Position numbers and translations under genes: made by a program. A stretch of DNA of 35,990 nt from Klebsiella pneumoniae (GTDB lineage: Bacteria > Pseudomonadota > Gammaproteobacteria > Ga0077536). The DNA is taken from NCBI GenBank assembly GCA_945876945.1, contig CAMCQE010000024.1:1-35990 (forward strand). Direction: 5' to 3'. The notes below the pieces were generated by a model that saw only the letters and a program-made list of their open reading frames with translations, made no database searches and had not been told where the DNA came from. This document shows, piece by piece, positions 1,385 to 35,906 of the stretch. Every line of letters begins with the position of its first letter. Positions within the stretch are counted from its first letter, which is position 1.

Positions 1385-2272
1385 ATGACCGGTATCGACA
1401 TCAGCTTTGAGTTTTTCCCGCCGCGCAGCCCGGATGCGGTGGCGCGACTGGAGCAGACGCGCACCCACCTCAACGCCTGGCGTCCCAGTTTCTTTTCGGT
1501 CACCTTCGGCGCCGGCGGCAGCACGCGGGAACTCACGCTCGAAACCGCGCAGGCCGTCACCGCCGCCACCGGCGTGGACTGCGCGCCCCATATTTCCTGT
1601 CTCGGCACGCCGCAAGCGGAACTGCGCGCGGTGATTCAGCGTTATGTGGCTGTGGGCATTAAACGCGTGGTGGCGCTGCGCGGCGATATGCCCTCGGGGC
1701 TCACCGGCTTTGGCGAACTGCGCTATGCCAGCGAATTAGTGGCGTTTATCCGACAGGAAGCCGGTGACGCCTTCCATATTGAAGTTGCGGCCTATCCGGA
1801 GTTCCATCCGCAGGCCACCACCGCAGCCGCCGACCTCCAGCATTTCAAGACCAAGGTCGAGGCCGGCGCCAACAGCGCCATTACCCAGTATTTCTACAAC
1901 CCGGACGCCTATTTCCGCTTCCTCGACAGCTGCGCGGCGCTCGGGATTAGCCTGCCGATCGTGCCCGGCATCATGCCGATCACCAACTTCTCGCAGCTCA
2001 TGCGTTTCTCGGAGATGTGTGGCGCCGAAGTGCCGCGCTGGATTGTGAAGCGCCTGCGCGATTTCGGGGACGACCGCGAGGCGATTCGCGCCTTCGGCAT
2101 CGACGTGACTTCTGCCCTGTGCGAACGCCTGGTCGCGGGCGGCGCGCCGGGCCTGCATTTCTACACCATGAACCAACACGAGGCGGCGACCGCCATCCTC
2201 ACCAATATCGGAGTGAACAGCAGCCATGGACGGCAGCTCGACGCTAAGCACTCACCGCCGGCCGTCGACTAG
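1385..2272 (+). CDS. metF: methylenetetrahydrofolate reductase
   Basis: MetF reduces 5,10-methylenetetrahydrofolate to 5-methyltetrahydrofolate with FAD, supplying the methyl group for methionine synthesis. The 295-residue product has the normal family length and forms a TIM barrel. Visible family signatures are FEFFPPR at the N-terminus (with the catalytic Glu at residue 9), FSVTFGAGGS, APHISCLG, VALRGDMP, the EVAAYPEFHP region, GAN..ITQYFYN, PGIMPITN and a C-terminal PGLHFYTMNQ. The start ATG follows only a weak ribosome site. The last 47 bases overlap the start of the mshL-like secretin gene, so the pilus operon may be co-transcribed with metF. No other methionine-cycle gene is adjacent. 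Confidence 0.95.
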   Translation: MTGIDISFEFFPPRSPDAVARLEQTRTHLNAWRPSFFSVTFGAGGSTRELTLETAQAVTAATGVDCAPHISCLGTPQAELRAVIQRYVAVGIKRVVALRGDMPSGLTGFGELRYASELVAFIRQEAGDAFHIEVAAYPEFHPQATTAAADLQHFKTKVEAGANSAITQYFYNPDAYFRFLDSCAALGISLPIVPGIMPITNFSQLMRFSEMCGAEVPRWIVKRLRDFGDDREAIRAFGIDVTSALCERLVAGGAPGLHFYTMNQHEAATAILTNIGVNSSHGRQLDAKHSPPAVD

Positions 2273-3899
2273 ACGCGCAGGCTACGCGCTCGGGCTTGCG
2301 CTGGGTCTTGCGCTCGGCGGCTGCGCCACGCCGCCGCCGACGTTCAAGGCCCCGCCTGGGGCCCTGACGGCGCCGCCGGCCGCCGCGCGGACCGCGACTA
2401 TTCCGTCCCTGCCGGCGGCGCTGCCGCTGGTGCCACCCCCGCCGGCGACCGGCGCCGGCAAACGCTATCGCGTGGTGGTCAACCATGTGCCGCTGCGCGA
2501 TGTGTTGTTTGCGCTGGCGCGGGACGCCGCGCTCAATCTTGATCTCCGCGGTGAGCTGTCCGATCCGGTGACCGTGCACGTGGTGGACGAGACTGTGCCG
2601 CAGATTCTCGCGCGCCTCGGCCGCCAGTTCGCGCTTCGCTACACGCTTGAGGGCGACCGCCTGACGGTGGCCCCGGATGAGCCTTACTTCCACACCTACG
2701 AAGTGGACTACGTCAACCTGGCCCGCGATACCGAGACCTCGGTCAGTGTGGCCACCCAGGTCGCGACGACGGGCGAGGGCGGCGCCGGGCAGGCCGCCGG
2801 CAGCGGGGGCGGGCCGGGCAGCAACAGCTCTTCAACGCGGGTGAATTCAAAGGCCAGCCACCGCTTCTGGCCCACGCTCGCCGCCAATGTGCTGGCCCTC
2901 ATCGGCAAGGCCGCGCCGGCGGGCGAGGAACTCCCAAGTTCCGAGGCGCTGGTCGTCAACCCCGAGGCCGGTTTGCTGTCGGTCAAGGCGACGCATCGAC
3001 AACACGCCGAAATCGCCGCCTTCATCCAGCAGGTGCTGAGCCACGTGCGCCGGCAGGTGCTGATTGAAGCCACCGTGGTGGAAGTCAGTCTCAACGACCG
3101 CTACCAGTCGGGCGTGGATTGGCAACTGATTCTGGACGAAGCCCGCGCCGGCCTTGGCGCCAGCCAGAACCTCCTGGGCGCGCTGTCCGACGGCGCGGCG
3201 GCGCTCACGCTGGGCTATCACCACCCGGACGCCGACGGCCGCGTCATCGACGCCACGCTGAAGCTCCTGCATGAGTTTGGTGACACCCGGGTGCTTTCAA
3301 GCCCGCGCCTGATGGTGCTCAACAACCAGACCGCGCTGCTGAAAGTGGTGGAGGAACTCGTGTACTTCACCGTGCAGGTGACCGCCACCGACGGCACCGC
3401 CAACGCGCAGGGCCGCACGGTGGTGCAGAGCGAGGTCCACTCGGTGCCGGTGGGCCTGGTGATGGCGGTGACGCCGCAAATTTCGGCCGATGCCGAAGTC
3501 ACGCTCACCGTGCGGCCCACCATCTCGCAGAAAATTGGCGAGGCCATCGACCCCGGCCCGCAGCTCGCGCTTAGCCTGAACGGCGACGGCCAATCCCTGC
3601 CCAACAACACCGTGCCGGTGATCCGCACCCGCGAAATGGAGTCGGTGCTGAAACTTGTGAACGGGCAGGTGGGCGTGCTCGGCGGCTTGATGCAGGACGA
3701 GCAAATTGTGAACCGTCGGGAAGTGCCGGGCTTGAGTCAGCTGCCGGGGCTTGGGGCCTGGCTGTTCCGGGGCGAAAGCCGGAGTCACCGCAAGACAGAA
3801 CTGGTGATTTTTCTGCGGCCCGCGGTGGTGGAGACGCCGAGCGTCGCCCGCGACCTGCGGGACTATCAACCCTGGCTGGAACAGGGGGTCCGCTCATGA
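2226..3899 (+). CDS. mshL: MshL-like outer-membrane secretin lipoprotein
   Basis: Secretins form the multimeric outer-membrane gate through which a type IV-like pilus exits. The 557-residue protein has an Arg-rich n-region, a hydrophobic stretch and a lipobox LGGC with Cys33, so it is probably a lipoprotein. A Pro/Ala-rich linker follows, then an STN/N0-like domain (VPLRDVLFALARDAALNLDL, about 90-150). Next comes a Gly/Ser-rich loop (about 180-205), and the C-terminal secretin domain with VEVSLNDRYQSGVDW, SSPRLMVLNNQTA, and the closing VLGGLMQDE...PGLSQLPGLGAWLF and ELVIFLRP. This architecture matches the MSHA protein MshL better than PilQ or GspD. The ATG lies inside metF; this start is needed to keep the whole signal peptide. 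The gene ends in an ATGA overlap with the next gene. Confidence 0.87.
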   Translation: MDGSSTLSTHRRPSTRRAGYALGLALGLALGGCATPPPTFKAPPGALTAPPAAARTATIPSLPAALPLVPPPPATGAGKRYRVVVNHVPLRDVLFALARDAALNLDLRGELSDPVTVHVVDETVPQILARLGRQFALRYTLEGDRLTVAPDEPYFHTYEVDYVNLARDTETSVSVATQVATTGEGGAGQAAGSGGGPGSNSSSTRVNSKASHRFWPTLAANVLALIGKAAPAGEELPSSEALVVNPEAGLLSVKATHRQHAEIAAFIQQVLSHVRRQVLIEATVVEVSLNDRYQSGVDWQLILDEARAGLGASQNLLGALSDGAAALTLGYHHPDADGRVIDATLKLLHEFGDTRVLSSPRLMVLNNQTALLKVVEELVYFTVQVTATDGTANAQGRTVVQSEVHSVPVGLVMAVTPQISADAEVTLTVRPTISQKIGEAIDPGPQLALSLNGDGQSLPNNTVPVIRTREMESVLKLVNGQVGVLGGLMQDEQIVNRREVPGLSQLPGLGAWLFRGESRSHRKTELVIFLRPAVVETPSVARDLRDYQPWLEQGVRS

Positions 3900-4771
3900 G
3901 CCGGCGCCCAAGCCTCTCGCCTCCGCTGCAGTGGCGAAGCTCAACGCCGGCGCTGGCTTGCCTCGTCGCGGTGGCCCTGGCGCTGGGCTTCGGCGCCGGC
4001 GCGCGGCGCCTGCAAGGCCACGCGGTCGCGCTGCCAGTGCCGCAGCTGCCGCAGGTGAACGTGACGCCGGCAACGCTGCCCTGGCCTGCGGTGGTCGCGC
4101 CGGAACCGCTTATCCCGCCGACCTCGCTCGCGTCCGCCGAGGCTCCGGACCCCGCCAACCCGCCATCAGGCGCTGCGGCGCCGGAGATCGATATTCATCT
4201 CGCGCCGCCGCGCAGGGGGACGCCGCTCGCGATCGCCCACGCCGCCTGGTGGCGGGGCGATTGGGCTACCGCGCGCACCGCCTATCTGGCCGCGCGCGCG
4301 CAGACGCCGCGACTCGCCGAGCCCGAACTCGGTCTGGCGGCGCTCGCGTTGCGTGAGGGCGCGAGCGCCGTGGCCGCCAGTCACTATCACGCCGCCTTGC
4401 GGCTCGACCCCACCAATCCCATCGCGCGAATCGGCCTGCTGAGCGAGACGCCCGCCAGCGTCGGGCGCCGGGACCTCGCGCAGGAGAGTCGCAATCCCCG
4501 GGAGCTCGCCCATTTCCACTACGCGCTCGGCCGAGCGGCGGCGGCGGCTCTCCAGTGGGCGGGCGCCCGGCAGGCTTTCGCGCAGGCCCTCGCGCTGTCG
4601 GCCAGCCCCGATTACGCGGTGGCGCTCGCCGTAGCGCTCGATCATCTGGGGCTTGAGACCGAAGCCGCGGGCTACTACCGCCGCGCCCTCGCCGACTGGT
4701 CGGCCGCGCGCGCCGGTTTTGACCCGGCCCCTATCCGCTTGCGGCTGCAAGCGCTGAATGCCGAATTTTGA
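3896..4771 (+). CDS. MshN-like membrane-anchored TPR protein
   Basis: A 291-residue protein with a short cytoplasmic N-terminus, one membrane segment (about 18-37), a Pro/Ala-rich periplasmic linker (about 45-110), and helical repeats resembling tetratricopeptide repeats (for example WWRGDWATARTAYLAARAQ, then SHYHAALRLDPTNP and ARQAFAQALAL). In Vibrio MSHA loci a TPR protein of this layout, MshN, sits next to the ATPase gene mshE and is needed for pilus assembly. The position here, between secretin and ATPase, is the same. No mshM-like AAA ATPase is present between secretin and TPR gene, unlike the Vibrio order. The start overlaps the previous stop (ATGA). The MshN assignment rests on architecture and position, because the sequence itself is poorly diagnostic. 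Confidence 0.7.
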   Translation: MSRRPSLSPPLQWRSSTPALACLVAVALALGFGAGARRLQGHAVALPVPQLPQVNVTPATLPWPAVVAPEPLIPPTSLASAEAPDPANPPSGAAAPEIDIHLAPPRRGTPLAIAHAAWWRGDWATARTAYLAARAQTPRLAEPELGLAALALREGASAVAASHYHAALRLDPTNPIARIGLLSETPASVGRRDLAQESRNPRELAHFHYALGRAAAAALQWAGARQAFAQALALSASPDYAVALAVALDHLGLETEAAGYYRRALADWSAARAGFDPAPIRLRLQALNAEF

Positions 4772-4781
4772 GGGGGCGACG

Positions 4782-6482
4782 ATGGCATCTGTCCCGCAAC
4801 GCCTGGGTGATCTTTTGCTGGCGCGGCGCGCGCTGAGTCCGGACCAACTGGGAACAGCGCTGGCCGAGCAGCAGCGCCGGCCCGAGCCGCTGGGGCAGAT
4901 CCTGCTCCGGCTTGGCTTTGTCACCGAAAACCACTTGCTGGAGGCCTTTGGCCACGCCGTGCACGACTCGGCGGTGCCGGGCGCGCGGCTGCGTCCCGAG
5001 GCGGCGGCGCTGGCGCTGCTGCCGGGGGATCTTGCACAACGATTCCAGGTCTTGCCCTTGAGTGTCGAGCCCACGCTGGGGCGCCTGACGCTCGCCATGC
5101 GCGACCCCGACGACGTGGTGGCGTTGGACCACTGCGCCGCGCAGTTGCCGGCCAACACCACCATCGACGCGCGGGCGGTCGATGCGGCAGCACTGCGCGA
5201 CGCGATCGAGCAGGCCTACGGGCTACGCAGCTCGGTACAGGCGCTCACGCAACAGTTCGAACCACAGGTCGGCCGCTCACTGCGCGATACGGCCGAGGCG
5301 TCGCCGCCCGTCATCCGCTTGCTGGAGGCGGTGCTGGCCGAGGCCGTGCGGCAAGGCGCTTCGGATATCCATTTCCAACCCGGCGCAGCGGGCCTCGCGC
5401 TCCGCTATCGGGTGGACGGCGTTTTGCGCCTCGCGCATAGCCTGCATCGGGACTACTGGCCACCGTTGGCCGTGCGCGTAAAGGTGTTGGCCGGGCTCGA
5501 TATCGCCGAGTCACGGGCACCGCAGGACGGCCGCTTCAGCCAGCAGGTGGCCGGGCGCGAGATCGACTTCCGGGTCGCCAGTTTGCCCACCACGCAGGGC
5601 GAAAACATCGTGTTGCGGGTGCTGGATCGGGCGCGCGGCATTGTGCCGCTGACGGGGCTGGGGCTGGACGAGGCGAGCCTGCAGCGCCTGCGGCTGATGG
5701 TCGCCCGGCCAAGTGGCTTGATGCTGGTGTGCGGACCCACCGGCTCCGGCAAGACCACCACGCTCTATAGCCTGCTCAATCACCTGAACAATCCGGCGGT
5801 GAACATCATGACGCTGGAGGATCCGGTGGAATATCCGCTCGCGGACATCCGCCAGACCTCGCTCGCGGAGGGCCTGCGGCTCGATTTCGCCAGCGGCGTG
5901 CGGGCCTTGCTGCGTCAGGATCCGGACATCCTGCTGATTGGTGAAATCCGCGACGAGGACACCGCCGCCATGGCCTTGCGCGCGGCGATGACCGGGCATC
6001 AGGTGTTCTCCACCCTGCATGCCACCGCCGCGCTCGGGGCCTTGCCCCGACTGTTCGAGATGGGCATTGAGCCGGCCTTGCTGGCCGGCAATCTGAGCGG
6101 CCTGATGGCCCAGCGGCTGGTCAGAAAGCTGCGTCCCGAGTGCATTGAGTGGGTGATGGCGAACGCGCTTGAGCGGCGCCTGCTGGGCATGGCCGAAGGC
6201 GAGCACCGCAAACACCCGCGCCCCACGGCCAGCGCCCGGCAGGCGGTGCACGGCGGGTATGCCGGGCGGATCGCGCTCATGGAGTTGCTCCGGGTGGACC
6301 GCGCGATGGATGAACTCATCGCCCGCAACGCCGGCCCGCGCGAACTGGCGCTGGCGGCGCGCGGCGCGGGTTTTGTCGGGCTGGCCGAGGTGGCGAGCGA
6401 ACGGGTGCTGGCCGGCCTCACCACGCTGGAGGAGATCGCGCGCGTGGTTGACCTCACGCCGCGCGTGGAAGCGCTGCCGTGA
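4782..6482 (+). CDS. mshE: MshE-like pilus assembly ATPase with MshEN domain
   Basis: A GspE/PilB-family hexameric ATPase that powers pilin polymerisation at the inner membrane. It has 566 residues from the ATG at 4782, preceded by a purine-rich GAGGGGG. An ATG at 4758 is an alternative. Residues 7-56 carry two tandem MshEN-type motifs (RLGDLLLARRALSPDQL and PLGQILLRLGFVTENHLL), the module that binds cyclic di-GMP in Vibrio MshE. Walker A is GPTGSGKT at 318-325, and Walker B is DPDILLIGE at 380-388. An Asp box (TLEDPVEYP) and a His box (TGHQVFSTLHA) are present. The paired CxxC zinc-finger motif usual before GYxGRIxxxELL is absent: a single Cys remains and GGYAGRIALMELL follows directly. It overlaps the next gene by GTGA. 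Confidence 0.9.
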   Translation: MASVPQRLGDLLLARRALSPDQLGTALAEQQRRPEPLGQILLRLGFVTENHLLEAFGHAVHDSAVPGARLRPEAAALALLPGDLAQRFQVLPLSVEPTLGRLTLAMRDPDDVVALDHCAAQLPANTTIDARAVDAAALRDAIEQAYGLRSSVQALTQQFEPQVGRSLRDTAEASPPVIRLLEAVLAEAVRQGASDIHFQPGAAGLALRYRVDGVLRLAHSLHRDYWPPLAVRVKVLAGLDIAESRAPQDGRFSQQVAGREIDFRVASLPTTQGENIVLRVLDRARGIVPLTGLGLDEASLQRLRLMVARPSGLMLVCGPTGSGKTTTLYSLLNHLNNPAVNIMTLEDPVEYPLADIRQTSLAEGLRLDFASGVRALLRQDPDILLIGEIRDEDTAAMALRAAMTGHQVFSTLHATAALGALPRLFEMGIEPALLAGNLSGLMAQRLVRKLRPECIEWVMANALERRLLGMAEGEHRKHPRPTASARQAVHGGYAGRIALMELLRVDRAMDELIARNAGPRELALAARGAGFVGLAEVASERVLAGLTTLEEIARVVDLTPRVEALP

Positions 6483-7675
6483 GAGCTTTCCGCTATCGCG
6501 CGATCGATGCGGGTGGCGGGGTGCATCAGGGCCACGCGCGGGCGTCCGGGCTGGCAGAGCTGGACGCGCTGCTCGCCGGCCGTGGGCTGGAACTCCTCCG
6601 CGCCCGACCCAGCTGGCGGCCCGGCGCGCGCGCTCTGCCCCGGCTGCCGCGTCCGGCGCAAATGCTCTTGTTGAGCCAGCTCGAGCAATTGCTGCGCGCG
6701 GGTTTGCCGATGCTGGAGATTCTGGCCGAGCTTGCGCGGGCGGGCGGCGGGGCCGGCGCGATCGCCCGTGGCCTGGCCGAGAGCATCGCGGCCGGGCTGC
6801 CGCTGTCGGCCGGGCTCGCGCGTTTCCCTCAGGGGTTTGATCCCGTGCTGGTGAGTCTGGTGCGGGCCGGGGAAGAAAGCGGCAGCTTGCCGGCCCTGCT
6901 GCGGCAAGCGGTGGCGGACCTGCGGTGGCAGGAGGAACAACTTGCGCTGACGCGGCGGGTGTTGCTGTATCCGGCGCTGGTCGGCGGCGTGTTGGCGGCG
7001 GCGCTGTCCTTCCTGCTGGTGTACGTGGTGCCACAACTCGCCGGCTTCCTCACCGGCATGGGGCAATCCCTACCGCCGCAGACCCGCGCGCTGCTGGCCT
7101 GTGCCGAAGGGCTCAAAGCGTACGGCCTGTTCGCCGGGGTCGGGCTTGGGCTGCTGACGGTCGGCGCCCTCACGGCGATTCGTAGCAATACAGCGCTGGC
7201 CACCGCCTTCGATCGCCTGTGTCTGCGCTTGCCCGTGTTCGGGCCAGTGCTCGGCAAGCTCGCCCTCGGCCGGATGTGTCGGGTGTGCGCCGTGCTCTAC
7301 GCCGCCGGCATTCCCCTGCCGGAGGCCCTGCGCCTGACTCGCGGCGTGCTGACTAACCGGGCGCTACGCACAGCGCTGGTGGTGGCGGAGGAACAAATCG
7401 ACGCCGGCGCCGGCTTACACGATGCGTTCGCGGCGGCGCAGATATTCCCCGACCTCTTGCTGCGGATGCTACGCGTGGGCGAGCACAGCGGGCGGCTCGA
7501 TGAGGCGCTGGGCCAGGTTGCCGAGTGTTTCGCCAGCGAAGCGCGTGAAACCGTCGCGCGCCTGCAGACGCTGCTCAATCCCGCGCTGGTCGGGGTGCTC
7601 GGATTGGTACTGCTATGGATCGTCTGGGCCGTGTTCGAGCCGCTTTACGGGCTGCTCACCCACCTGCGGGTGTAG
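6479..7675 (+). CDS. mshG: PilC/GspF/MshG-family inner-membrane platform protein
   Basis: The platform protein couples the cytoplasmic ATPase to pilin insertion. The 398-residue product has two T2SSF domains, each with the usual signature: LLSQLEQLLRAGLPMLEIL...GLPLSAGLARFP...VRAGEESGSLP in the first half, and RVCAVLYAAGIPLPEALRL...LLRMLRVGEHSGRLDEAL in the second. Hydrophobic segments occur near residues 161-186, 210-230 and 365-390. The start is a GTG overlapping the TGA of the ATPase gene, and the protein begins FRYRAID, a common beginning for this family. Seven bases separate it from the next gene. Confidence 0.88.
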   Translation: MRAFRYRAIDAGGGVHQGHARASGLAELDALLAGRGLELLRARPSWRPGARALPRLPRPAQMLLLSQLEQLLRAGLPMLEILAELARAGGGAGAIARGLAESIAAGLPLSAGLARFPQGFDPVLVSLVRAGEESGSLPALLRQAVADLRWQEEQLALTRRVLLYPALVGGVLAAALSFLLVYVVPQLAGFLTGMGQSLPPQTRALLACAEGLKAYGLFAGVGLGLLTVGALTAIRSNTALATAFDRLCLRLPVFGPVLGKLALGRMCRVCAVLYAAGIPLPEALRLTRGVLTNRALRTALVVAEEQIDAGAGLHDAFAAAQIFPDLLLRMLRVGEHSGRLDEALGQVAECFASEARETVARLQTLLNPALVGVLGLVLLWIVWAVFEPLYGLLTHLRV

Positions 7676-7681
7676 CCGGCG

Positions 7682-9133
7682 ATGCGTCGCGCTGATGTGC
7701 TGATGGTGGGGCCGGACGGCGTGCGCTTGCTCCGCTGCGCGCGAGATCAGGTGGCAACGCTTTGGGCCGGGCCGAACGGGGCACAGGCGCCGGGGGCGGT
7801 GGGGGAGGTGTTGCGCACTCTGGCACCCGGCCCCGTATGGCTGCTGCTCGATGTGGTGGAGGAGGAATATCTGACGGCGAGCCTGCCTGCGATGGCGTTG
7901 CGGGACCGTGCCCGCTTGCTCGAGCGACGGCTGGCGAGCGCCTTTGGCAGCACGCCGCTGCGACTGGCCCAGCCGGCAACGGTAACCCGGCCTGCGTCGT
8001 CGTTGCTCAGCGCCATCACCCGGCCTGAACTGCTCACCCCATGGCTGGAGGTGCTGCGCGAGAGCCCCAGCGCGTTGGCGGGGGTGTATTCGCTGGCGCT
8101 GCTGGGCCCGGCGCTGCTGTCGCTCATCGGCCCGACCGCAGGCCCCTGCGTGCTGGTGAGCCGTCAGGGGGTGGGCGGGCTGCGGCAAAGTTTTCTGCGC
8201 GATGGGCAACTGGTGATGAGTCGCCTGGTGCCGCTCGGCGCCGCGCAGGACACGCTGGATGGCGCGCGGGTGGAAACCGAACTCGCCCGCCTGCGCCAAT
8301 ACCTCGAGCGCTCAGGCCTGTGTGCGCCGGACGAGACGCCCGCCGTGGTGGTCTTGACCGCCGAAGGCCGCCACGCGGCGTCGGCGAACGGGGCCGCGCA
8401 GGCCTGGCGCTACGTCGCGGTGGACGCCCTACTCGGCGCGCGCGGCCCCCGTCAGATAGACGACTGTGACGCGCTCTTTGCCGCGCTGTTGTGCCGCACG
8501 CCGCCTGCCACCCAGTACGCGAGCCCCGCCCAGACCGCGGTGCATCGGGGCCGACGGCGAACCCGTCTGGCGCTGAGTGCGATGGCGCTCGGTCTGTGCC
8601 TGGCCGCCGGCGCGGGTCTGTGGCAAACCCTTGAGGGCTTGCAGCTGGCGGCGCGTGCGGCGGCGCTGGCGGCGCACAACGGCGAGACGCAGGCCAGTCT
8701 CATCATTAGCCGCGCAGCAGTGCCGCCAGTGCTGATGCCGAGTGCGCAGCTGCGGCCCGCGGTCGCCCTGGTGGCCGAGGTCGCAAGCCGCCGCAGCAAT
8801 CCGCAGCCCGCGCTCGCCAGGGCCGAGGCGGCGCTCGCCACCGTGTCGGCGCTGCGCTGGACTGCGCTGGAATGGCAGGCGGCAGAGGCGGCAAGCCCTG
8901 CCGATGTAGGGCAGACATTGATTCGCGGCACGGTGGAAGGGCTGGGCGGCGATGAGCGGGCAGCGCTCGGGGTGATCTCTGCGCTTGCCAGCGCGCTTGC
9001 CGGGCAGCCGGGTGTGGCTGGCGTAAAAATTCTGGAGACGCCGCTGGATTTGCCGGCTAGCCCCGGCCCGGCGGCGCCGCCTAGCCCCGGCTTTGCAGTG
9101 TCCTTCACGCTGGGCAGCCGCCATGCGCCCTGA
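7682..9133 (+). CDS. GspL/PilM-PilN-like (MshI position) pilus assembly protein
   Basis: The 483-residue protein has a cytoplasmic N-terminal part of about 290 residues, one membrane segment (LALSAMALGLCLAAGAGLW, about 299-317) and a periplasmic C-terminal part. This is the layout of GspL or of a PilM-PilN fusion. The cytoplasmic part has recognisable pieces of the actin-like fold (LLLDVVEEEYLTASLPAM, and VLVSRQGVGGLRQSFLRDGQL). Vibrio MSHA loci have MshI in this functional slot. Sequence conservation is weak, so the role is inferred from topology and from its place between platform protein and a PilO-like gene. The start ATG is 7 bases after the previous stop. Confidence 0.62.
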   Translation: MRRADVLMVGPDGVRLLRCARDQVATLWAGPNGAQAPGAVGEVLRTLAPGPVWLLLDVVEEEYLTASLPAMALRDRARLLERRLASAFGSTPLRLAQPATVTRPASSLLSAITRPELLTPWLEVLRESPSALAGVYSLALLGPALLSLIGPTAGPCVLVSRQGVGGLRQSFLRDGQLVMSRLVPLGAAQDTLDGARVETELARLRQYLERSGLCAPDETPAVVVLTAEGRHAASANGAAQAWRYVAVDALLGARGPRQIDDCDALFAALLCRTPPATQYASPAQTAVHRGRRRTRLALSAMALGLCLAAGAGLWQTLEGLQLAARAAALAAHNGETQASLIISRAAVPPVLMPSAQLRPAVALVAEVASRRSNPQPALARAEAALATVSALRWTALEWQAAEAASPADVGQTLIRGTVEGLGGDERAALGVISALASALAGQPGVAGVKILETPLDLPASPGPAAPPSPGFAVSFTLGSRHAP

Positions 9134-9719
9134 GGCACTGGCGCGCTGGTGGCGAACGCTCGGCTACGCGCTCGGCGTGGCGCTCGCCCTTGCGCTGGTG
9201 CTGGGCCCCTATCGCTTTCATACCCGGATGGCGCAGCGCCTCGCCGCAGCGGAGGCCGTTCAGGCCGCGCTGGAGAGAGAATCCGCGGCGCTGACCGAGG
9301 CGGCGCGCGCGCAGACGCAGTGGGCCCCCGCCGTGGTGGCGCTCGCGCGACAGGGTCTGCTGGGGTTGCCGGCGCGGCTCAGCTGGGTCGAAGCCCTGAA
9401 AGCGGCCGGCCCCGCGCTTGCGCTGCGTGATTGGCAGTGGTCGTTCGGGCCGCAGGCGGCGGCCACCGTGTCGGACTTGATGCCGGTCGCCGGCTTCGCG
9501 GTGGTCGCAGCCCCGGTGAGTCTGCGTTTCGGGGCGCCCGATCTGACCCGCGTCGGCGATTTACTGCGCTGGCTGGAGCGCCACGCGGGTGGGGTTTTCA
9601 CCGTTCGCGCTTGTCATCTGCAGCGCCTGGACATGAAGGCGCCCGGGAACATCGAGGCGCGTTGCGAAAGCCAGTGGCTGACGGTGCAGCCGGCGGCCGA
9701 GCAGGGGCAGCCACCATGA
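9123..9719 (+). CDS. PilO/GspM/MshJ-like pilus assembly protein
   Basis: A 198-residue bitopic protein: about 10 cytoplasmic residues, one membrane helix (LGYALGVALALALVLGPY), a heptad-like helical region rich in Ala, Glu and Gln (about 35-75), then a small periplasmic alpha/beta domain. PilO, GspM and MshJ share this plan and pair with PilN, GspL or MshI, which fits the gene upstream. I prefer the ATG at 9123 (overlapping the previous gene by 11 bases) because it places the helix directly after a short basic N-terminus; the frame is open further upstream. It ends in an ATGA overlap with the next gene. Confidence 0.62.
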   Translation: MRPEALARWWRTLGYALGVALALALVLGPYRFHTRMAQRLAAAEAVQAALERESAALTEAARAQTQWAPAVVALARQGLLGLPARLSWVEALKAAGPALALRDWQWSFGPQAAATVSDLMPVAGFAVVAAPVSLRFGAPDLTRVGDLLRWLERHAGGVFTVRACHLQRLDMKAPGNIEARCESQWLTVQPAAEQGQPP

Positions 9720-11545
9720 GACCTGCAGGCCGCGAGCGCGGGATCATCGTCTTGATGCTGCTGGTGGTGTTGGCGCTGACCGCGGCCAGCGCCCTCCTGC
9801 TCACCGATCTGAACGCGAATCGCGCCACGCCGGCTGCGGTCGCCCGCCAGACGGCAACCGCGCTGGCCGAAGCGCGCGGCGCCTTGCTGGGCTATGCGGC
9901 GGCTTATCCGGATCGGGCCGGCGTGAACAGTCGCACCGCGGGTCCGGGCCTTTTGCCCTGTCCGGATACACGACTGGACAGCAACGATGTGGCCGGGCAG
10001 GCGGATTCTCCCTGTGCGCTATCGAGCGCGACTGAGACCGGACTGCTGCCCTGGCGCACGCTGGCGCTGTCCGATTTGCGCGACGGCACCGGCGCGCCGC
10101 TGTGGTACGCGCTCGCGAACGGCTATCGGAATAACCCCGCCGGGGTGGTGAACAGCGACACCCCGGCGGGCTTGCGCCTTGATAACTGTCGGCTCGACGG
10201 TCGGCGCATCGCCGCCCTCGTGCTGGCGCCCGGTGCGCCGCTGGGTGGCCAACAGCGCAACGCCGACGCCCTCGCGACGCGCTATCAGGCCAGCCACTAT
10301 CTGGAAGAGGCCAATGCCAGTCGCGGCGACGGCTGTTTCGGCAGCACCACCGGCGCGAGCGCGAACGACGTGCTCGTCGCCATCGACCGCGAGGCGCTGA
10401 ACGCGGTGATGGAGCGCCGGGTGCTGGCTGAGGTGCTGCGCGCCTTGCGTCGTTACGCGGCCGACCCGGAGGCCAACGACCGCAACGGGCAGGACCCGGT
10501 GTGTCTCGCCGCGAGTGCTGCCGGGGATTGCGATACCGCGCTGCCCTGGCTAAGCCCCTGGGCGCCGCCGGCCACCAGCCCGTTTGCTGGCGTGGTCGGC
10601 ACCCGCATCGGGCAACTGCCGCTCCGGCGGGTGGGCGAGAGCTTCGCCGCGCCCTATCTCGCCCGCTGGACCTTGGCCAGCGGCACGCTCACCAGCACCG
10701 GCGTATCGCCGCCGTCCGCCGCCTGCCTGCGCGATACCACGCAGCCCTGCGTGGTGCAGCCGCCGGGCTTTCTGGCCGGCACCGTGCTGCGGCGTGACGC
10801 GGCCGCGGAAGGCGCGCCGCGCTGTCGCTGGCCGGGCGGCAGCGCGCTGGTGTGCGAACGCAGCGTGGCGGTGGCCGATGCGGGCGGCTCGGGGAATACC
10901 CTGGTTCGGCACGAAACCATTGCCTTCAGCGGCTTACCCCGCCAGATCCAGCGGCCCGACGCCACGCACCTGCGCCGCGAGGCCACCAGTCTCAAGGCCG
11001 AAATCCTGCCGGCAGGCGCGGGCTTGGACATCAGCATGGAAGACGTCGTCCGCAATCCCGCCGGACAGGTGCAGGCCGTGGGCGCCTCGCGGCTAAGGCT
11101 TGAGGCCGGGGCGCCGGTCAACGAGTTCGTGGTGGAGGACGTCCCGCTCGATCTGGAAGTAGACGATGACGGTCAGCTCGAGCCTGCGAACCGGGCGTCG
11201 CCGGGCGAACTGCCGGCGTGGTTTGTCGCCAATCGCTGGCAGGACTATGTACTGGTGGCCTACAGCCCGGCTTTGGCGCCGGGTAGCGGCGGGCGGGCCT
11301 GTACGGCGGGCGCCGACTGTCTGCTGCTCGCCCGGCGGTCGCCGGACGGCAATACGCAAACGCTTGATGACGTGACCGGACTGGTGGTGCTGGCGGGCGC
11401 GGCGCTGCCCTCCCAGCGGCGTAGCGCAGGTGATCCGGCCCAATGGTTTGAAGGGGACAACGCGCGCTTGGGCGGGCAGTTCACCGAGCAAGCGCCGGAT
11501 GCGCGTTTTAACGACCGTCTGCGCCGGCTGGAGAGCCATGATTAG
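9716..11545 (+). CDS. large PilX/GspK-like pilin-related protein with an LPCPD motif
   Basis: A 609-residue protein with a prepilin-like N-terminus (RERG, then IIVLMLLVVLALTAASALLL). Mature position 5 is Met rather than the Glu found in major pilins; loss of Glu5 is known for GspK and PilX-type minor subunits, so this may be the tip-capping subunit. After the helix comes ARGALLGYAAAYPDR...GLLPCPDT, a motif also present in the next gene. The rest is a large domain with many Cys residues (for example CLAASAAGDCD, CLRDTTQPCVV, CRWPGGSALVC, CTAGADCLL) that could form disulfides outside the cell. The true start is the ATG at 9716, overlapping the previous stop (ATGA). It overlaps the next gene by 8 bases. 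Exact function is unknown. Confidence 0.65.
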   Translation: MRPAGRERGIIVLMLLVVLALTAASALLLTDLNANRATPAAVARQTATALAEARGALLGYAAAYPDRAGVNSRTAGPGLLPCPDTRLDSNDVAGQADSPCALSSATETGLLPWRTLALSDLRDGTGAPLWYALANGYRNNPAGVVNSDTPAGLRLDNCRLDGRRIAALVLAPGAPLGGQQRNADALATRYQASHYLEEANASRGDGCFGSTTGASANDVLVAIDREALNAVMERRVLAEVLRALRRYAADPEANDRNGQDPVCLAASAAGDCDTALPWLSPWAPPATSPFAGVVGTRIGQLPLRRVGESFAAPYLARWTLASGTLTSTGVSPPSAACLRDTTQPCVVQPPGFLAGTVLRRDAAAEGAPRCRWPGGSALVCERSVAVADAGGSGNTLVRHETIAFSGLPRQIQRPDATHLRREATSLKAEILPAGAGLDISMEDVVRNPAGQVQAVGASRLRLEAGAPVNEFVVEDVPLDLEVDDDGQLEPANRASPGELPAWFVANRWQDYVLVAYSPALAPGSGGRACTAGADCLLLARRSPDGNTQTLDDVTGLVVLAGAALPSQRRSAGDPAQWFEGDNARLGGQFTEQAPDARFNDRLRRLESHD

Positions 11546-12326
11546 GCGCGCTGCGGGCTTCACTTTACTCGAGCTTGCCATGGTGCTGATGGTGCTCGGC
11601 CTGGTGCTGGCCGGTGGGATCGGTCCGCTGGAAACACAGCTGGAGCAGCGCGACCGGGCGGCCACGCAGGTCTCGCTCGAGCGCGTGCGCGATGCCTTGC
11701 TGGGCTATGCCGGCACCTATGGCCGCTTGCCTTGCCCCGATGCGGATGGCGATGGCTTGCCGGATCCGGTTTTCGATCCCGCCCGCAAAGCGAGCGCCAC
11801 TTGTGCCCGCAGCACGGGCTTTTTGCCCGGTGCCGAGTTGGGCGTGCTCGCCACCGATGCCTGGGGCAACCGCTTGGTCTATCGGGTGACCGCGCCGCGC
11901 TTCACCTGGCCCGACGCGGATGGCCTGTGCAACGGCAATGCAAGCGGCGAGCTCGATCTCTGCGCGCAGGGGGAGATCATCGTGCATAGCCGGGGCGACA
12001 ACCCGCAGACCAATGGCCGGAGCGAGGGCAAGTTCGACCTTGTGCTGGCAGACAAGGTGCCGGCGCTGGTGGTGTCCCCGGGGCGCAACGGGGCGGGCGC
12101 GACCGGCGCTAACGGACTGACGCGCGCCGCGCCCTCCGGCGAGGACGAGCAAGACAACGCCAACGGTGACGCGCGGTATCTGTTGCGCAACCCGACGCGA
12201 GGAGCGCCGAGCTGTAGCGACAGCGGCAACGAAGCGACCCCGCTGTGTGAGTTCGACGACTTGGGCGTGTGGCTGTCACCGGTGGTGCTGCAGGAGCGGC
12301 TGGTGGCCAGCGGGCGTCTCCCTTAA
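11538..12326 (+). CDS. type IV pilin-like protein with an LPCPD motif
   Basis: A 262-residue prepilin. A 7-residue leader ending in Gly is followed by FTLLELAMVLMVLGLVLAGG, the class III signal with Glu at mature position 5, for processing by a prepilin peptidase (not in this window). After the N-terminal helix comes RVRDALLGYAGTYGRLPCPDADGDG, shared with the 609-residue protein upstream. Several Cys residues (CARSTG, CNGNASGELDLC, CSDSGNEATPLC) may form disulfides in the exported domain. The ATG at 11538 overlaps the preceding stop and places the cleavage motif at the right distance; upstream in-frame codons would give an unlikely leader. Probably a minor pilin or pseudopilin of this pilus. 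Confidence 0.8.
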   Translation: MIRRAAGFTLLELAMVLMVLGLVLAGGIGPLETQLEQRDRAATQVSLERVRDALLGYAGTYGRLPCPDADGDGLPDPVFDPARKASATCARSTGFLPGAELGVLATDAWGNRLVYRVTAPRFTWPDADGLCNGNASGELDLCAQGEIIVHSRGDNPQTNGRSEGKFDLVLADKVPALVVSPGRNGAGATGANGLTRAAPSGEDEQDNANGDARYLLRNPTRGAPSCSDSGNEATPLCEFDDLGVWLSPVVLQERLVASGRLP

Positions 12327-27020: not shown

Positions 27021-27938
27021 ATGACCCTGTCCGATGCCCCCGCCGCCATTCTGTTTCTCGACATCGCGGATTCGTCCGCGCTGACCAGCCGACTTGGCGA
27101 TTTGGACGCGGGCCGCCTGCTAGGCCGGTTGCTTGAACGGGTGCAGGGCATTGTCGAGCACCACGGCGGCCGGGCGGTCAAATCTCAGGGGGACGACCTC
27201 ATCGCCTACTTCGCGCCGAGCGAAGACATTGCGGCGCGCGCGCTGGAGGCGACCATTGCCTGTATGCATGCGGCGCAGGAACCCGGTTTGGGACTGTATG
27301 CCGGGCTGGCCAGCGGGCCGGTACAGGTCACCGAAGTGCTCGGGCGGTTTGATGTCAGCGGCCAAACGGTGATCACCGCGGCGCGGCTCCATAAGCTGAT
27401 TGAAGGCCTGTCCGGCCGCATCTTTATGAGTGGGGCGACCGTCAGCGATCTGCCCGCATCGCTCCGCGCTGGCTGCAAGGCCTTCGGCAGCCGGGAGTTG
27501 AAAGGCTTAGGCGAAATCGAGGTCTTTACCTACGAGTGGCTGGATGGCAACAGCACCGAATTCGTCAACCTCTCGCTGCAGGATTTGCCGCTGCCCGAAC
27601 TCTGGCTCCGCGTGGGTGGCCGCGAGCTGCGCTTCTCCGCCCAGCAGTCTCCGGTGCAGGTGGGGCGCCAACCGATAGGCGCGGGCAGTGTGGTGATGCA
27701 GGGGACCAATGTCTCTGGTCGGCATCTGGACTTCGTCGTTGACGGTCAGGTTTGGCGGGTGAGCGACCGCAGCCGCTGCGGCACCTGGCTGAGAGTCGAG
27801 AACGGCAGCGTGGACGTGCCGCTCGCGGGCAAGTCCGCGGTGCTACTGGGCGCAGGCGCGCTTTGCCTGGGTCGGCACTTTGCCGACGACCCGAGCGGCG
27901 AATTTACGCTGGGTTTTCGCGTCGAGGCGCCCGGCTGA
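27021..27938 (+). CDS. class III nucleotide cyclase domain fused to an FHA domain
   Basis: A 305-residue cytoplasmic protein. Residues 8-125 are a class III cyclase homology domain: ILFLDIADSS with metal-binding Asp14, VKSQGDDLIAYF with Lys54 (purine-contacting) and Asp58 (second metal), and GRFDVSGQTVITAARL with Asp111 and transition-state Arg122. The conserved catalytic Asn of the VNxAAR motif is Ile118 here, so activity is doubtful or altered. Residues about 205-290 are an FHA domain (VQVGR, NVSGRHLDF, DRSRCGTWL), which binds phosphothreonine. The next gene is a Ser/Thr kinase, a likely source of the phosphorylated partner. The start is the ATG at 27021, one codon after an in-frame TTG. 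Confidence 0.85.
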   Translation: MTLSDAPAAILFLDIADSSALTSRLGDLDAGRLLGRLLERVQGIVEHHGGRAVKSQGDDLIAYFAPSEDIAARALEATIACMHAAQEPGLGLYAGLASGPVQVTEVLGRFDVSGQTVITAARLHKLIEGLSGRIFMSGATVSDLPASLRAGCKAFGSRELKGLGEIEVFTYEWLDGNSTEFVNLSLQDLPLPELWLRVGGRELRFSAQQSPVQVGRQPIGAGSVVMQGTNVSGRHLDFVVDGQVWRVSDRSRCGTWLRVENGSVDVPLAGKSAVLLGAGALCLGRHFADDPSGEFTLGFRVEAPG

Positions 27939-28031
27939 AAGCTTTGCGCGCAGTCGCCCCGGCTGCTGCGTTGCCTCTCCTCTCCGACCTCTGGCACGCT
28001 AGCCAAATGATCAATCGTCTCGACCATTGTC

Positions 28032-29921
28032 ATGGCGGATGACCAGCCGCTCACCCTGCCCGGACACACGGTGCTCTCCCGGCTTGGGCGCGGCGGCATG
28101 GCCACCGTGTGGCTGGCACGCGAAGAGGCCTTGAGCCGTCTGGTGGCGGTGAAAGTGATCGACCAGCGGCTGGACGACGACCGCCAGCTCAGGGTGCGCT
28201 TCGAGCGCGAAGCACGGACCGCCGCCAGCCTCTCGCATTCCAGCATCGTGCCCGTCTACCAGTACGGCATGCTGGACGACGGGCGCCCCTTCATGACCAT
28301 GGCGTTTCTGGAAGGCGGTAGTTTGCGCGACCGCCTGCAGCGCCATGGTCCGTGTTCGGTCGAAGAGGCCTTGGCCATCACCCGCCGGGTCGCAGGGGCT
28401 TTGCAGGTGGCGCATGCGCGCAACGTCATTCACCGGGATCTGAAGCCGGACAACGTCATGTTCCAGGGCGAAAACGCCCTGTTGATGGACTTTGGTATCG
28501 CCAAGGTGATGGACGCTTCCACCAACCTCACGGGTGCGGGGGTTAATCCGGGTACGGTGAGGTACTTCAGCCCGGAACAGGCGCTGGGGCGGCCGCTGGA
28601 CCAGCGGTCCGACCTGTATGCCCTTGGCGTCATGTTGTTCGAGATGCTCACGGGATTGAGCCCGCTGGAGGCAAAGTCCTCGGCTTCCTATCTCTACAGC
28701 ATTGCCTTTCAGGCGCCGGCGCCGCTGCCGGCGCCGCTCCGGGGGCTGCAGCCCCTGGTGGATCTCCTGTTGGCCAAGGACCCCGCAGACCGCTTGGGCT
28801 CTGCCGGCGAGGTGCTGGCTGCCGTCGCGGCGATGGAGCGGAACTGGCATCGCTTCGAGTCGGTCGACCACGTGATGGAAGGCGTAGTGCTTACGCCCTC
28901 CGGACAGCACGCGCCGCTGGTCAATCTGGATGAGCTGCCGCCGCCAGGGTCCTCAACGGAACTGGACGTCGGGCTGTTGTTGCAGTCCCTGCAACGCACG
29001 CAAACCGTGCCGCCCTCGGCGACCGGCGGCCAACTCTCCCGCACGCTGGCGTTGTCGGCGGCGGGTGAATCCCGCGTGGGTCTGTTGACGCTTGGCCTGA
29101 GCCCGCCCGATGCGAGGGTCCTGCTTGAGTTTACCGATGCGCAAGGGTCGGTTCGGCGTGAGGTCTGGGCGGGGCAGCCCCTGTCGCTGCCGGTTGGCGC
29201 GGTGCGCCTGTTGGCGGTGGCGGAGGGTTATCAGGATCTGCAGCGCACGGTCCTGGTGAGCCCCGGCAACCACACGGAGAGGCTGACGCTTGCCCCCGTC
29301 ACCTCGGCGTTCAACACCGGGGTGCCCGGGGCGGCTGTCGAGCCCGCCCAGCCCCCGCTCGTCTCGCGCGGGGCCGAGCGTCGGCCGCATTGGCTGCTGG
29401 CGCTGGTGGCGCTGCTGACGCTGATCGTCGCGGTGGCGGTCTATCGCGGTGTCGGCGGCACGGGGTCGTTGGGTCCGGGCCAGACGCCAAGGGCGCCGCT
29501 GGGCGACCAGACCCCCATCGATCCGGCCCTGAAAAAAGCGCTGGCGGTGCAGTTCGCGAGCCTGCAGTCGGCGCGTACCCAATTCGAACAGTCGCTGCAG
29601 GCGCTGGCCGAGCTCGCGAAGGCCGAGCGGCTTGGCGAGCCGCCCGAACGCCCGCAGCTCGACGCCCTGAGCGCCGAGGCGGGGCAACTGGCAGCGGCGG
29701 GCGAGTTCGAGTCCGCAATTGCACGCTTGCGCCAAGCGCGAGCGGCCGCACAGGCGGCGCAACTCGCGCTGCTGGATCGCGCTTTTGTCGCTGCGACCAC
29801 CGCTGCCCAAACCGCGCTGACAGCGAAAAACGCCGCCGCTGCGCGCGAGGCCCTGAATGATGCCGAGCGCCTGTCCGCGCGGCGCGCCGAATTGGCCGCT
29901 ACAGGGGGCGCCGAGCCATGA
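28032..29921 (+). CDS. membrane Ser/Thr protein kinase with PEGA-like region
   Basis: A 629-residue Hanks-type kinase. Gly-rich loop GRGGMATV at 19-26, Lys41, Glu60, catalytic loop HRDLKPDN with Asp136, and DFG at 153-155 are all intact, followed by an activation segment (NPGTVRYFSPEQ) with possible phosphothreonines. After the kinase domain (about 11-270) come a linker and, at about 355-425, a beta-rich PEGA-like region (ARVLLEFTDAQG...SLPVGAVRLLAVAEGYQDLQRTV). A single membrane helix lies near 455-475 (LLALVALLTLIVAVAVY). The last 120 residues are helical and Ala/Gln-rich, probably a periplasmic coiled coil. The stop overlaps the SUMF1-domain gene (ATGA), coupling the two. Confidence 0.92.
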   Translation: MADDQPLTLPGHTVLSRLGRGGMATVWLAREEALSRLVAVKVIDQRLDDDRQLRVRFEREARTAASLSHSSIVPVYQYGMLDDGRPFMTMAFLEGGSLRDRLQRHGPCSVEEALAITRRVAGALQVAHARNVIHRDLKPDNVMFQGENALLMDFGIAKVMDASTNLTGAGVNPGTVRYFSPEQALGRPLDQRSDLYALGVMLFEMLTGLSPLEAKSSASYLYSIAFQAPAPLPAPLRGLQPLVDLLLAKDPADRLGSAGEVLAAVAAMERNWHRFESVDHVMEGVVLTPSGQHAPLVNLDELPPPGSSTELDVGLLLQSLQRTQTVPPSATGGQLSRTLALSAAGESRVGLLTLGLSPPDARVLLEFTDAQGSVRREVWAGQPLSLPVGAVRLLAVAEGYQDLQRTVLVSPGNHTERLTLAPVTSAFNTGVPGAAVEPAQPPLVSRGAERRPHWLLALVALLTLIVAVAVYRGVGGTGSLGPGQTPRAPLGDQTPIDPALKKALAVQFASLQSARTQFEQSLQALAELAKAERLGEPPERPQLDALSAEAGQLAAAGEFESAIARLRQARAAAQAAQLALLDRAFVAATTAAQTALTAKNAAAAREALNDAERLSARRAELAATGGAEP

Positions 29922-30688
29922 GGCCCGCTGCCGTCCGTCGGTGGTGCGGCCGCGCGGGGCTGGCCTGCGCGCCCTGGCTGCTCGCGCTGCTGCTCTGCCC
30001 AATCCCCGCGCGGGCCGAAGACCAGACGCTGATCTTGCAGCGCCTGCGCCAGCAGCTGCAGGCGCTGGAGGCGGAGCTGGCCAGCCATAAGGCGCTGGCC
30101 GAGGCGATGGCGCGCGATTTCATCCCAATCCCCGGGCGCCAGTACCGGATGAGCAAAACCACGGTCACTTTTGCACAGTGGGATGCCTGCGTTGCGGCCG
30201 GCGGCTGTGATGGCTTTCGCCCGGATGACGCCGGCTGGGGCCGCGAGCAGCGGCCGGTGATTAACGTGAGCTGGGACGACACGCAGGCGTTCATCCACTG
30301 GCTGAACGCACAAACCGGCAAACGCTATCGCCTGCCGACCGAAGAAGAGTGGGAGCACGCTGCCCGTGCGGGTACCGTAACGGCGTACTACTGGGGCAAT
30401 GAAATCGGCGTCAACCACGCCAACTGCGACGGGTGCGCCGCCGAATGGCGTAACCCGCAGACCCTGCCGGTTGGCAGTTTCGCCGCCAATCCGTTTGGCC
30501 TTTTCGACATGCTGGGCAACGTCTGGCAGTGGACCAGCGACTGCTGGGAGGGCGACTGCGGGAGGCGCGTCCTGCGCGGCGGAGCGTGGTTCGAAGACCC
30601 GGAACACCTGCGGGTCACGACTCGCGACTGGACCGCAACCTCCGGGCGTGGGCGGATCGTCGGGTTCCGCTTGGTTGAGGACCGCTAG
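29918..30688 (+). CDS. exported SUMF1/FGE-sulfatase-domain protein
   Basis: A 256-residue protein with a basic N-terminus, hydrophobic core and signal-peptidase-like site (PARA before EDQ, about 33). A short heptad-rich helix (LQRLRQQLQALEAELASHKAL) follows. The rest is a formylglycine-generating-enzyme-like domain: FIPIPGRQYRMSKTTVTFAQWDAC, PVINVSWDDTQAFIHWLNAQTGKRYRLPTEEEWEHAARAG, NPFGLFDMLGNVWQWTSDCW, RVLRGGAWF, and RIVGFRLV. Paired Cys (CVAAGGC, CDGC, CWEGDC) suit an oxidising compartment. The copper-binding cysteines of true formylglycine-generating enzymes are not evident, so it is probably a binding or scaffold domain working with the kinase upstream. Confidence 0.88.
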   Translation: MRPAAVRRWCGRAGLACAPWLLALLLCPIPARAEDQTLILQRLRQQLQALEAELASHKALAEAMARDFIPIPGRQYRMSKTTVTFAQWDACVAAGGCDGFRPDDAGWGREQRPVINVSWDDTQAFIHWLNAQTGKRYRLPTEEEWEHAARAGTVTAYYWGNEIGVNHANCDGCAAEWRNPQTLPVGSFAANPFGLFDMLGNVWQWTSDCWEGDCGRRVLRGGAWFEDPEHLRVTTRDWTATSGRGRIVGFRLVEDR

Positions 30689-34709: not shown

Positions 34710-35906
34710 TCTCGTCATATACGTGTTCTGCATGTAGCGGGCTCCTCTCACGGGAGCGGGCTCCTTCTCCCCTCACAAACTGGACAGAACACACCCACGC
34801 TGGCCAATGGCGTGGATGCGACTGCGGCCGGATCTCAAGGCCTGGTAGTTAACGGCAACGCGGTGTTCGGTGACGTTGGAGCCAATCAGGCGCTGGCGGC
34901 ACTGTCGGTCAGCGGCTCAAGCGTGCTCGGCGGCGGTACAACGGTCACCACCACAGGTGCGCAGCGTTATGCCGGCGCGGTCACAGCCGCTGGCGACGCC
35001 ACGCTCAGCAGCAGCCGTGGTTCGCTGGTCTTCGGCAGCACCGTAGATGGCCCGCTGGGCAACACCCTGACGCTGCGTGCAGACACCGGTGACGTAGACG
35101 TGACTGGCGCGCTGCGTGTCGGCAATCTGGAGCAGACGGTCGGTGGCGTGAGCCGCTTCCGCAATACCGTGAGCGCCCAAGGCAGTATTCAACTGACCGC
35201 GCGCAGTTTCACTTTTGGCAATGCCCTGACTGCCAATAAGGGTGCAATCGCGCTTGCTAATAGTGACAACGCCGGGCTGGTGAATTTCGCCGCCGGCGCT
35301 AACGTGCAGGCCGCGACCGGTTTCCGCCAGACGGGCGGTTCGATGGTGGTTTTGCCGACCCGGGTGAGCGTCACGCAAGGGCCGATCTCGCTCGATGCGT
35401 CGGCAAGCTTGCCTGCGGGTCAGGCGAGTATCGAAACCGCTGGCGACATCAGTTTCTCTGGCCTGATCGGAACCGACACCGCGCTGACCATGAACGGCGG
35501 CCGGGCCGGGAAGCTTACGGTCGGTTTGAACGACGCCTCGACCGATAACAAGCTCAATGTGCGCAGTCTCGCGGTGCAGACGGCCGCATCGGCTGCGATG
35601 TATGGCGCTATCGGAGGGCAGAGCGGTGCGCAGGCGGCATCCCTCGTGACCAGCCCTCTGGTGAATGCCCCGTACTTCATCAACGACACCCCATGGGGCC
35701 CGGTCAACGAGACCCCATCGGGACCGATCGACCGGATTCCGACGGTAGCGGCCATTATGACGCCCAAAATCTCGCTGCCAGGCCGGCAGGGGGTGAGCTC
35801 GCTGTTCAGTCGCCAAGTTAGCCCCCAAAGCGTGGCGCTCGACGCAATCTCCGCATTTCGCGACCCGTCGGTGTTGAACGTGCTTAACGAATCGTCGCCG
35901 CAATAA
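34710..35906 (+). pseudogene. filamentous haemagglutinin-like adhesin, 3' part without a start
   Basis: The frame is open from 34710 (after a TAA) to a TAA at 35906; a GTG at 34812 is the first possible start but has no ribosome site. From about 34785 it reads QNTPTLANGVDATAAGSQGL and continues with repeated short beta-helix units: VNGNAVFG, TVTTTGAQRYAGAVTAAGDA, ADTGDVDVTGALRVG, RFRNTVSAQGSIQLTARSFTFG and ETAGDISFSG, all typical of large filamentous-haemagglutinin/TPS adhesins. The N-terminal secretion domain and signal peptide are missing. About 365 codons remain of proteins that usually exceed 1000. I take it as a truncated remnant, although a distant 5' part elsewhere cannot be excluded. 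Confidence 0.6.
34737..34764. repeat. 9-bp direct repeat with internal hairpin at the adhesin junction
   Basis: GCGGGCTCC occurs at 34737-34745 and 34756-34764. GCTCC (34741-34745) can also pair with GGAGC (34753-34757). It lies where adhesin-like coding begins and may mark the rearrangement that removed the 5' part. Confidence 0.4.

Follow-up and report, generated by a model that had tools for sequence, protein, structure and literature searches.

How could a bacterial cell pass a signal from its envelope to a cyclase-like protein in its cytoplasm? The question is raised by three co-directional genes, from an uncultured gammaproteobacterium, that fill positions 27021-30688 of the plus strand in a 35,990-nucleotide stretch of DNA (the window), which is contig C24 of a 3.8-Mb genome (G000; 97% complete). 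Statements on this genome come from searches of its sequence. The genes encode a protein that joins a class III cyclase fold to an FHA domain, a PknB-like Ser/Thr kinase, and an exported protein of the FGE/SUMF1 fold. A preliminary description of the sequence had given the three genes these identities, and all were recovered in place by Pfam and, for the cyclase-FHA protein, by an AlphaFold2 model and its fold matches in the PDB. The features of the locus are:

27021..27938, plus strand: cyclase-FHA protein, 305 amino acids (Pfam, family alignment, AlphaFold2 model, PDB fold matches)
27555..27557, plus strand: codon of linker Thr179, a candidate phosphoacceptor (conserved as Thr or Ser in homologues; disordered region)
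27962..28031, plus strand: conserved non-coding element on the upstream side of the kinase gene (identity between species compared with fourfold sites)
28032..29921, plus strand: PknB-like Ser/Thr kinase, 629 amino acids (Pfam, orthologue alignment and substitution rates, motif positions, AlphaFold2)
29918..30688, plus strand: exported FGE/SUMF1-fold protein, 256 amino acids (Pfam, PDB relatives, Cys positions, alignment)

We give about an even chance to the reading that the trio forms a trans-envelope threonine-phosphorylation relay with a degenerate cyclase as its reader, which would work like the PpkA-Fha-TagR/RtkS pathway of type VI secretion systems (T6SS) but without a T6SS.

Conservation and linkage of the three genes

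Comparison of genomes indicates that the trio is more than a chance association and is under purifying selection. It was intact in three of nine genus genomes, those of the window and of two other species (loci L043 and L044), whose cyclase-FHA proteins are 86-87% identical to the window protein; the two named records with the same trio are Gammaproteobacteria metagenome-assembled genomes. In L043 and L044 the trio adjoins P450 and flavin-monooxygenase genes, unlike in the window, where it is flanked by luciferase-like and exonuclease genes. The ratio of non-synonymous to synonymous substitution rates (dN/dS) was 0.05-0.4 in every part of the trio, so every part is being maintained. The kinase domain was the most constrained (0.05-0.07), followed by the FGE domain (0.10), the FHA domain (~0.2) and the cyclase domain (0.21-0.30). 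The window-type cyclase-FHA protein forms a long isolated branch on the tree and was found nowhere else among 36 genomes of the order (E ≤ 1e-25) or 369 genomes of the class (E ≤ 1e-22).

As had been proposed, the kinase and FGE genes share an exact ATGA overlap (29918-29921), which is kept in both orthologues. A gap of 93 bp lies between the cyclase-FHA and kinase genes, so tight coupling applies only to the kinase and FGE genes. The last 70 bp of this spacer were more alike between species (91-93% identity) than fourfold sites (74-75%) and thus constitute a conserved non-coding element, which is probably a promoter or regulatory sequence. A sigma-70 consensus was not found upstream of the kinase gene, and a scan for promoters and terminators gave nothing.

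This arrangement bears on an alternative in which the kinase and the FGE protein signal as a single unit to different targets in the cytoplasm, and the adjacent cyclase-FHA gene has a role of its own. The gap, with an element that may act as a separate promoter, would fit such a role, as would the degenerate phosphopeptide site of the FHA domain described below. However, the cyclase-FHA gene lies beside the kinase gene in all three species despite their changed outer flanks, and the two genes are close together in many other lineages; we regard a separate role as unlikely.

Intact cyclase-FHA relatives, at ~25-30% identity, are common in Proteobacteria. A kinase gene lay within 4 kb of the cyclase-FHA gene in 29 of 78 named loci; 11 of the 78 had cyclase-FHA, kinase and PP2C phosphatase genes together, and in six loci an FGE domain was also fused to the kinase by way of a transmembrane (TM) segment (kinase-TM-FGE). 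These counts are lower bounds because many contigs are short. As a rough yardstick, the 10 kinase genes in the 3.8 Mb of the window's genome give a chance expectation of ~2% for kinase proximity. The trio is thus syntenic in the genus, and across Proteobacteria cyclase-FHA genes are found repeatedly close to kinases, PP2C phosphatases and kinase-FGE fusions; both results bear out the conserved linkage on which the preliminary description had made its proposal depend.

The cyclase-FHA protein and its linker threonine

The cyclase-FHA protein consists of a class III cyclase fold (residues ~5-172), a linker (176-187) and an FHA domain (~195-303). Pfam matched Guanylate_cyc (2.8e-8) and FHA (9.4e-4) on 27021-27935, the latter at 20.0 bits, slightly below the 20.7-bit cut-off. 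In the AlphaFold2 model (mean predicted local distance difference test score, pLDDT, 89), both domains were confident and the linker was disordered (pLDDT <50), and the best PDB matches to the model were class III cyclases.

Residue counts were taken from an alignment of the window protein with 97 relatives. The cyclase domain keeps both metal-binding Asp residues (D14 and D58), the Lys/Asp substrate pair (K54/D111) and R122. The transition-state Asn, present in 96 of the 97 relatives, is Ile118 in the window protein, and Ile at this position was confined to the three window-type proteins; because the scan pattern let in only Asn or Ile here, the Asn count is biased among scan-derived loci. 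With Asn absent and the other catalytic positions kept, the residue set of an active cyclase is incomplete, and the window cyclase is probably catalytically impaired. Ile118 lowers the case for an active enzyme and leaves that for a cyclase fold standing.

The phosphothreonine-binding motifs of FHA domains have been named as GR, SxxH and NG (PMC1262709). The window domain keeps G215-R216, S232 and H235, of which the Arg and Ser correspond to phosphate contacts. It has G233 where nearly all of the family have Arg and C253 where nearly all have Asn (NG becoming C253-G254), changes that may weaken or alter the binding of phosphopeptides. Since the transition-state Asn is lost, and the FHA domain lacks two conserved residues while retaining the Arg and Ser contacts, a dead cyclase serving as a scaffold appears likelier than a cAMP output.

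A second alternative is that the cyclase is still active, or conditionally so, with phospho-dependent FHA binding switching the synthesis of a cyclic nucleotide that is read by the cell's cyclic-nucleotide (cNMP)-binding proteins. The retained metal, substrate and Arg residues and the purifying selection on the domain would be in keeping with activity, and 25 cNMP-binding domains over the cut-off are encoded in the genome, some joined to Ser/Thr kinase domains. Yet Ile replaces the transition-state Asn in all window-type proteins, selection on a fold does not require catalysis, and the cNMP-binding proteins could serve other cyclases or the intact paralogue on contig C161 (L045), where the same genome encodes a canonical cyclase-FHA and PP2C pair. 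We consider an active window cyclase improbable. The preliminary description had offered either a cyclic nucleotide or a dead cyclase used as a switch: the Asn-to-Ile change favours the dead cyclase, and cyclic-nucleotide output, although possible, is disfavoured in the window copy and less likely than in intact relatives.

The linker between the two domains is otherwise variable (mean top-residue frequency 28%), with the exception of position 179, where 93 of the 97 homologues have Thr and the other 4 have Ser. As a small control, 10 cyclases lacking an FHA domain were compared, and none had the W-x5-T motif. Thr179, a site picked by its conservation, is thus a candidate phospho-switch. In a known precedent, the FHA domain of GarA binds a phosphothreonine of the same protein (PMC5448819), and a conserved phosphorylatable linker residue beside a phosphothreonine reader gives the cyclase-FHA family the look of an intramolecular or inter-subunit phospho-switch. 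A wider proposal, which we put forward tentatively and at well under even chances, is that cyclase-FHA proteins are an undescribed phospho-switch family: the invariant linker Thr would be phosphorylated by a membrane kinase whose outer sensor has the FGE fold, the FHA domain would capture it, and the dimer state of the cyclase would be set as a result. In the genus of the window the enzyme would have been lost, leaving the switch itself as the output.

The kinase, the exported protein and the proposed relay

The kinase gene product (Pfam Pkinase, 4.8e-41 on 28032-29918) comprises a kinase domain (14-268), a juxtamembrane TQTVPPS motif (323-329), a beta domain (~350-420), a TM helix (~453-471) and a helical tail (~498-624). 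The catalytic motifs are intact (GRGG, the AVK lysine K41, HRDLKPDN, DFG and SPE). The only hydrophobic helix, 453-471, is preceded by RGAERR; judged from hydrophobicity and charge, this fits a kinase domain in the cytoplasm and a helical tail in the periplasm. In the orthologue alignment the motif LQSLQRTQTVPPS was invariant although the juxtamembrane stretch around it varied, and it could serve as a docking site once autophosphorylated. AlphaFold2 modelling from three sequences was poor (mean pLDDT 42) and usable only for the beta domain (350-420) and portions of the tail. The protein is not a PASTA-type PknB/Stk1 kinase by the searches used: NF033483 matched the kinase domain alone at 250.6 bits against a cut-off of 450, and no PASTA domain was found by Pfam. 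The C-terminal part had no match outside the genus among the 369 class genomes.

The third protein (Pfam FGE-sulfatase, SUMF1-like, 2.5e-42 on 29918-30685) has a signal-peptide-like N-terminus ending ARA|ED, identified by inspection and not with a signal-peptide program, then a coiled segment and an FGE domain (71-256). TagR of the T6SS pathway is SUMF1-like. The closest solved relatives of the window protein in the PDB are PvdO, the nearest, and SUMF2. The Cys residues of the domain are limited to positions 91, 97, 170, 173, 209 and 214; with none in 215-256, the catalytic Cys pair of a formylglycine-generating enzyme is missing from the C-terminal part of the domain. These data bear on a third alternative, that the FGE protein has enzymatic activity, as an oxidase like PvdO or FGE, and modifies an envelope target, with the kinase only regulating it or being regulated by its product. 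Kinship with PvdO and the strong constraint on the domain speak for catalysis, but the Cys pair is absent, and FGE domains are found repeatedly on the outer side of kinases and phosphatases, as would be expected of a sensor or binding fold. We regard an enzymatic role as very unlikely.

In the genus, the window FGE domain is nearest to the outer domains of PP2C-TM-FGE proteins (best 2e-41); kinase-fused FGE domains are much more distant (best 1e-14). The idea that the trio is a split kinase-TM-FGE fusion was not supported, given this affinity and the unmatched C-terminal part of the kinase; because the nearest homologues of the window FGE are fused to PP2C, the trio may instead be a separate assembly. 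One such protein is encoded in the window's genome (L173:7031-8896, contig C31) and consists of a PP2C phosphatase, one TM helix and a periplasmic FGE domain. Its FGE relatives occur in nine of nine genus genomes, and of 274 class genomes about two dozen had near-full-length matches. A push-pull pair could be formed by a kinase and a phosphatase whose outer sensors resemble each other. Another FGE domain, at L174:6116-8488 (contig C92), forms the C-terminus of a PEGA-repeat protein.

Under the relay that we propose for the trio, the exported FGE-fold protein would be a non-enzymatic sensor or adaptor. By binding to the helical tail of the kinase in the periplasm, it would govern kinase dimerisation and autophosphorylation. 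Once active, the kinase would phosphorylate the cyclase-FHA protein, most likely at Thr179, and/or offer phosphothreonines of its own (T323/T325 in TQTVPPS, for instance) for docking. Binding of a phosphothreonine by the FHA domain, in cis or in trans, would shift the oligomeric state or location of the impaired cyclase module, and this module would function as a scaffold or a nucleotide-bound switch. The phosphorylation could be undone by a PP2C from another locus, for instance the PP2C-TM-FGE protein on C31.

Several observations weigh against this relay. The FHA domain has lost Arg233 and Asn253, the kinase model is poor, no recognised binding domain was found in the periplasmic tail, and the kinase-fused FGE domains of relatives are only distantly related to the window FGE. 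A cognate, PppA-like PP2C is also absent from the trio loci; PP2Cs of the window's genome are encoded on contigs C161, C31 and C37. This lack of a PP2C, the linker Thr179, the T6SS parallel and the PP2C-TM-FGE protein go beyond what the preliminary description contained. If the relay is correct, the kinase, FHA protein and periplasmic activator logic of type VI secretion would extend to a cell whose genome gave no T6SS hit, and Ser/Thr phosphorylation would be linked directly to class III cyclases. FGE domains recur on the outer side of kinases and of a PP2C phosphatase, which suggests that Proteobacteria make wide use of an envelope sensor yet to be characterised.

Known systems and genomic surroundings

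In the T6SS pathway, the membrane kinase PpkA is switched on by a periplasmic protein, TagR in Pseudomonas aeruginosa or RtkS in Serratia marcescens; the kinase then phosphorylates the FHA protein Fha, and PppA reverses this step (PMC10482370, PMC6082577). The window likewise encodes a kinase predicted to have a transmembrane helix and periplasmic C-terminal part, a cytoplasmic FHA protein and an exported partner encoded nearby; unlike in the T6SS pathway, its FHA domain is carried by a cyclase protein, and its kinase has a C-terminal part with no counterpart outside the genus in the 369 class genomes. Membership of the trio in a T6SS was rejected because the sheath gene VipB/TssC gave no hit in this 97% complete genome, with a positive Escherichia coli control. 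The PknG-OdhI/GarA switch of Actinobacteria, with extracytoplasmic GlnH and membrane GlnX (PMC9769921, PMC5448819), follows a similar route from external binding protein to kinase to FHA protein. However, PknG is a cytoplasmic kinase with a separate membrane relay, whereas the window kinase itself spans the membrane, and the FHA protein of that system inhibits metabolic enzymes, whereas that of the window is joined to a cyclase domain.

The canonical proteobacterial cyclase-FHA/PP2C/kinase-FGE loci share with the window the cyclase-FHA architecture, the invariant linker Thr and the linkage of kinase and FGE. In contrast to the window type, they retain Asn in the catalytic site and both Arg and Asn in the FHA domain, contain a PP2C gene and have the kinase fused to FGE. 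We did not find a cyclase-FHA/kinase/FGE set described in the literature covered, which excluded most subscription papers. The trio is a real and conserved set of known parts in an unusual combination.

In some relatives (L053:1-14004, L054, L060, L110, L116, L122 and L164), genes for a cyclase-FHA protein, a PP2C and a kinase-TM-FGE fusion lie beside those for a parvulin-type isomerase, ShlB and a two-partner secretion (TPS) exoprotein. Judged by gene content, the L053-type neighbourhood is a phospho-signalling set linked to two-partner secretion. In the window, an orphan repeat-rich open reading frame at 34812-35906 resembles filamentous haemagglutinin by eye. Since Pfam gave no hit for it and it matched none of the TPS exoproteins tested, including those that the genome encodes on other contigs, a link to two-partner secretion is not claimed for the window trio.

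Positions 2226-12323 of the window hold an MSHA-like pilus or type II secretion-type set (secretin, T2SSE, T2SSF and a pilin with an N-methylation motif). Elsewhere in the genome, a second kinase/phosphatase/FHA set consists of CHASE2-kinase, PP2C and FHA genes in a row (L063:9855-14038, contig C37). Finally, Ser/Thr kinase and cNMP-binding domains share one open frame on contigs C30 (two), C65 and C51 and at L071 and L069; these frames apparently encode soluble, cyclic-nucleotide-regulated kinases.

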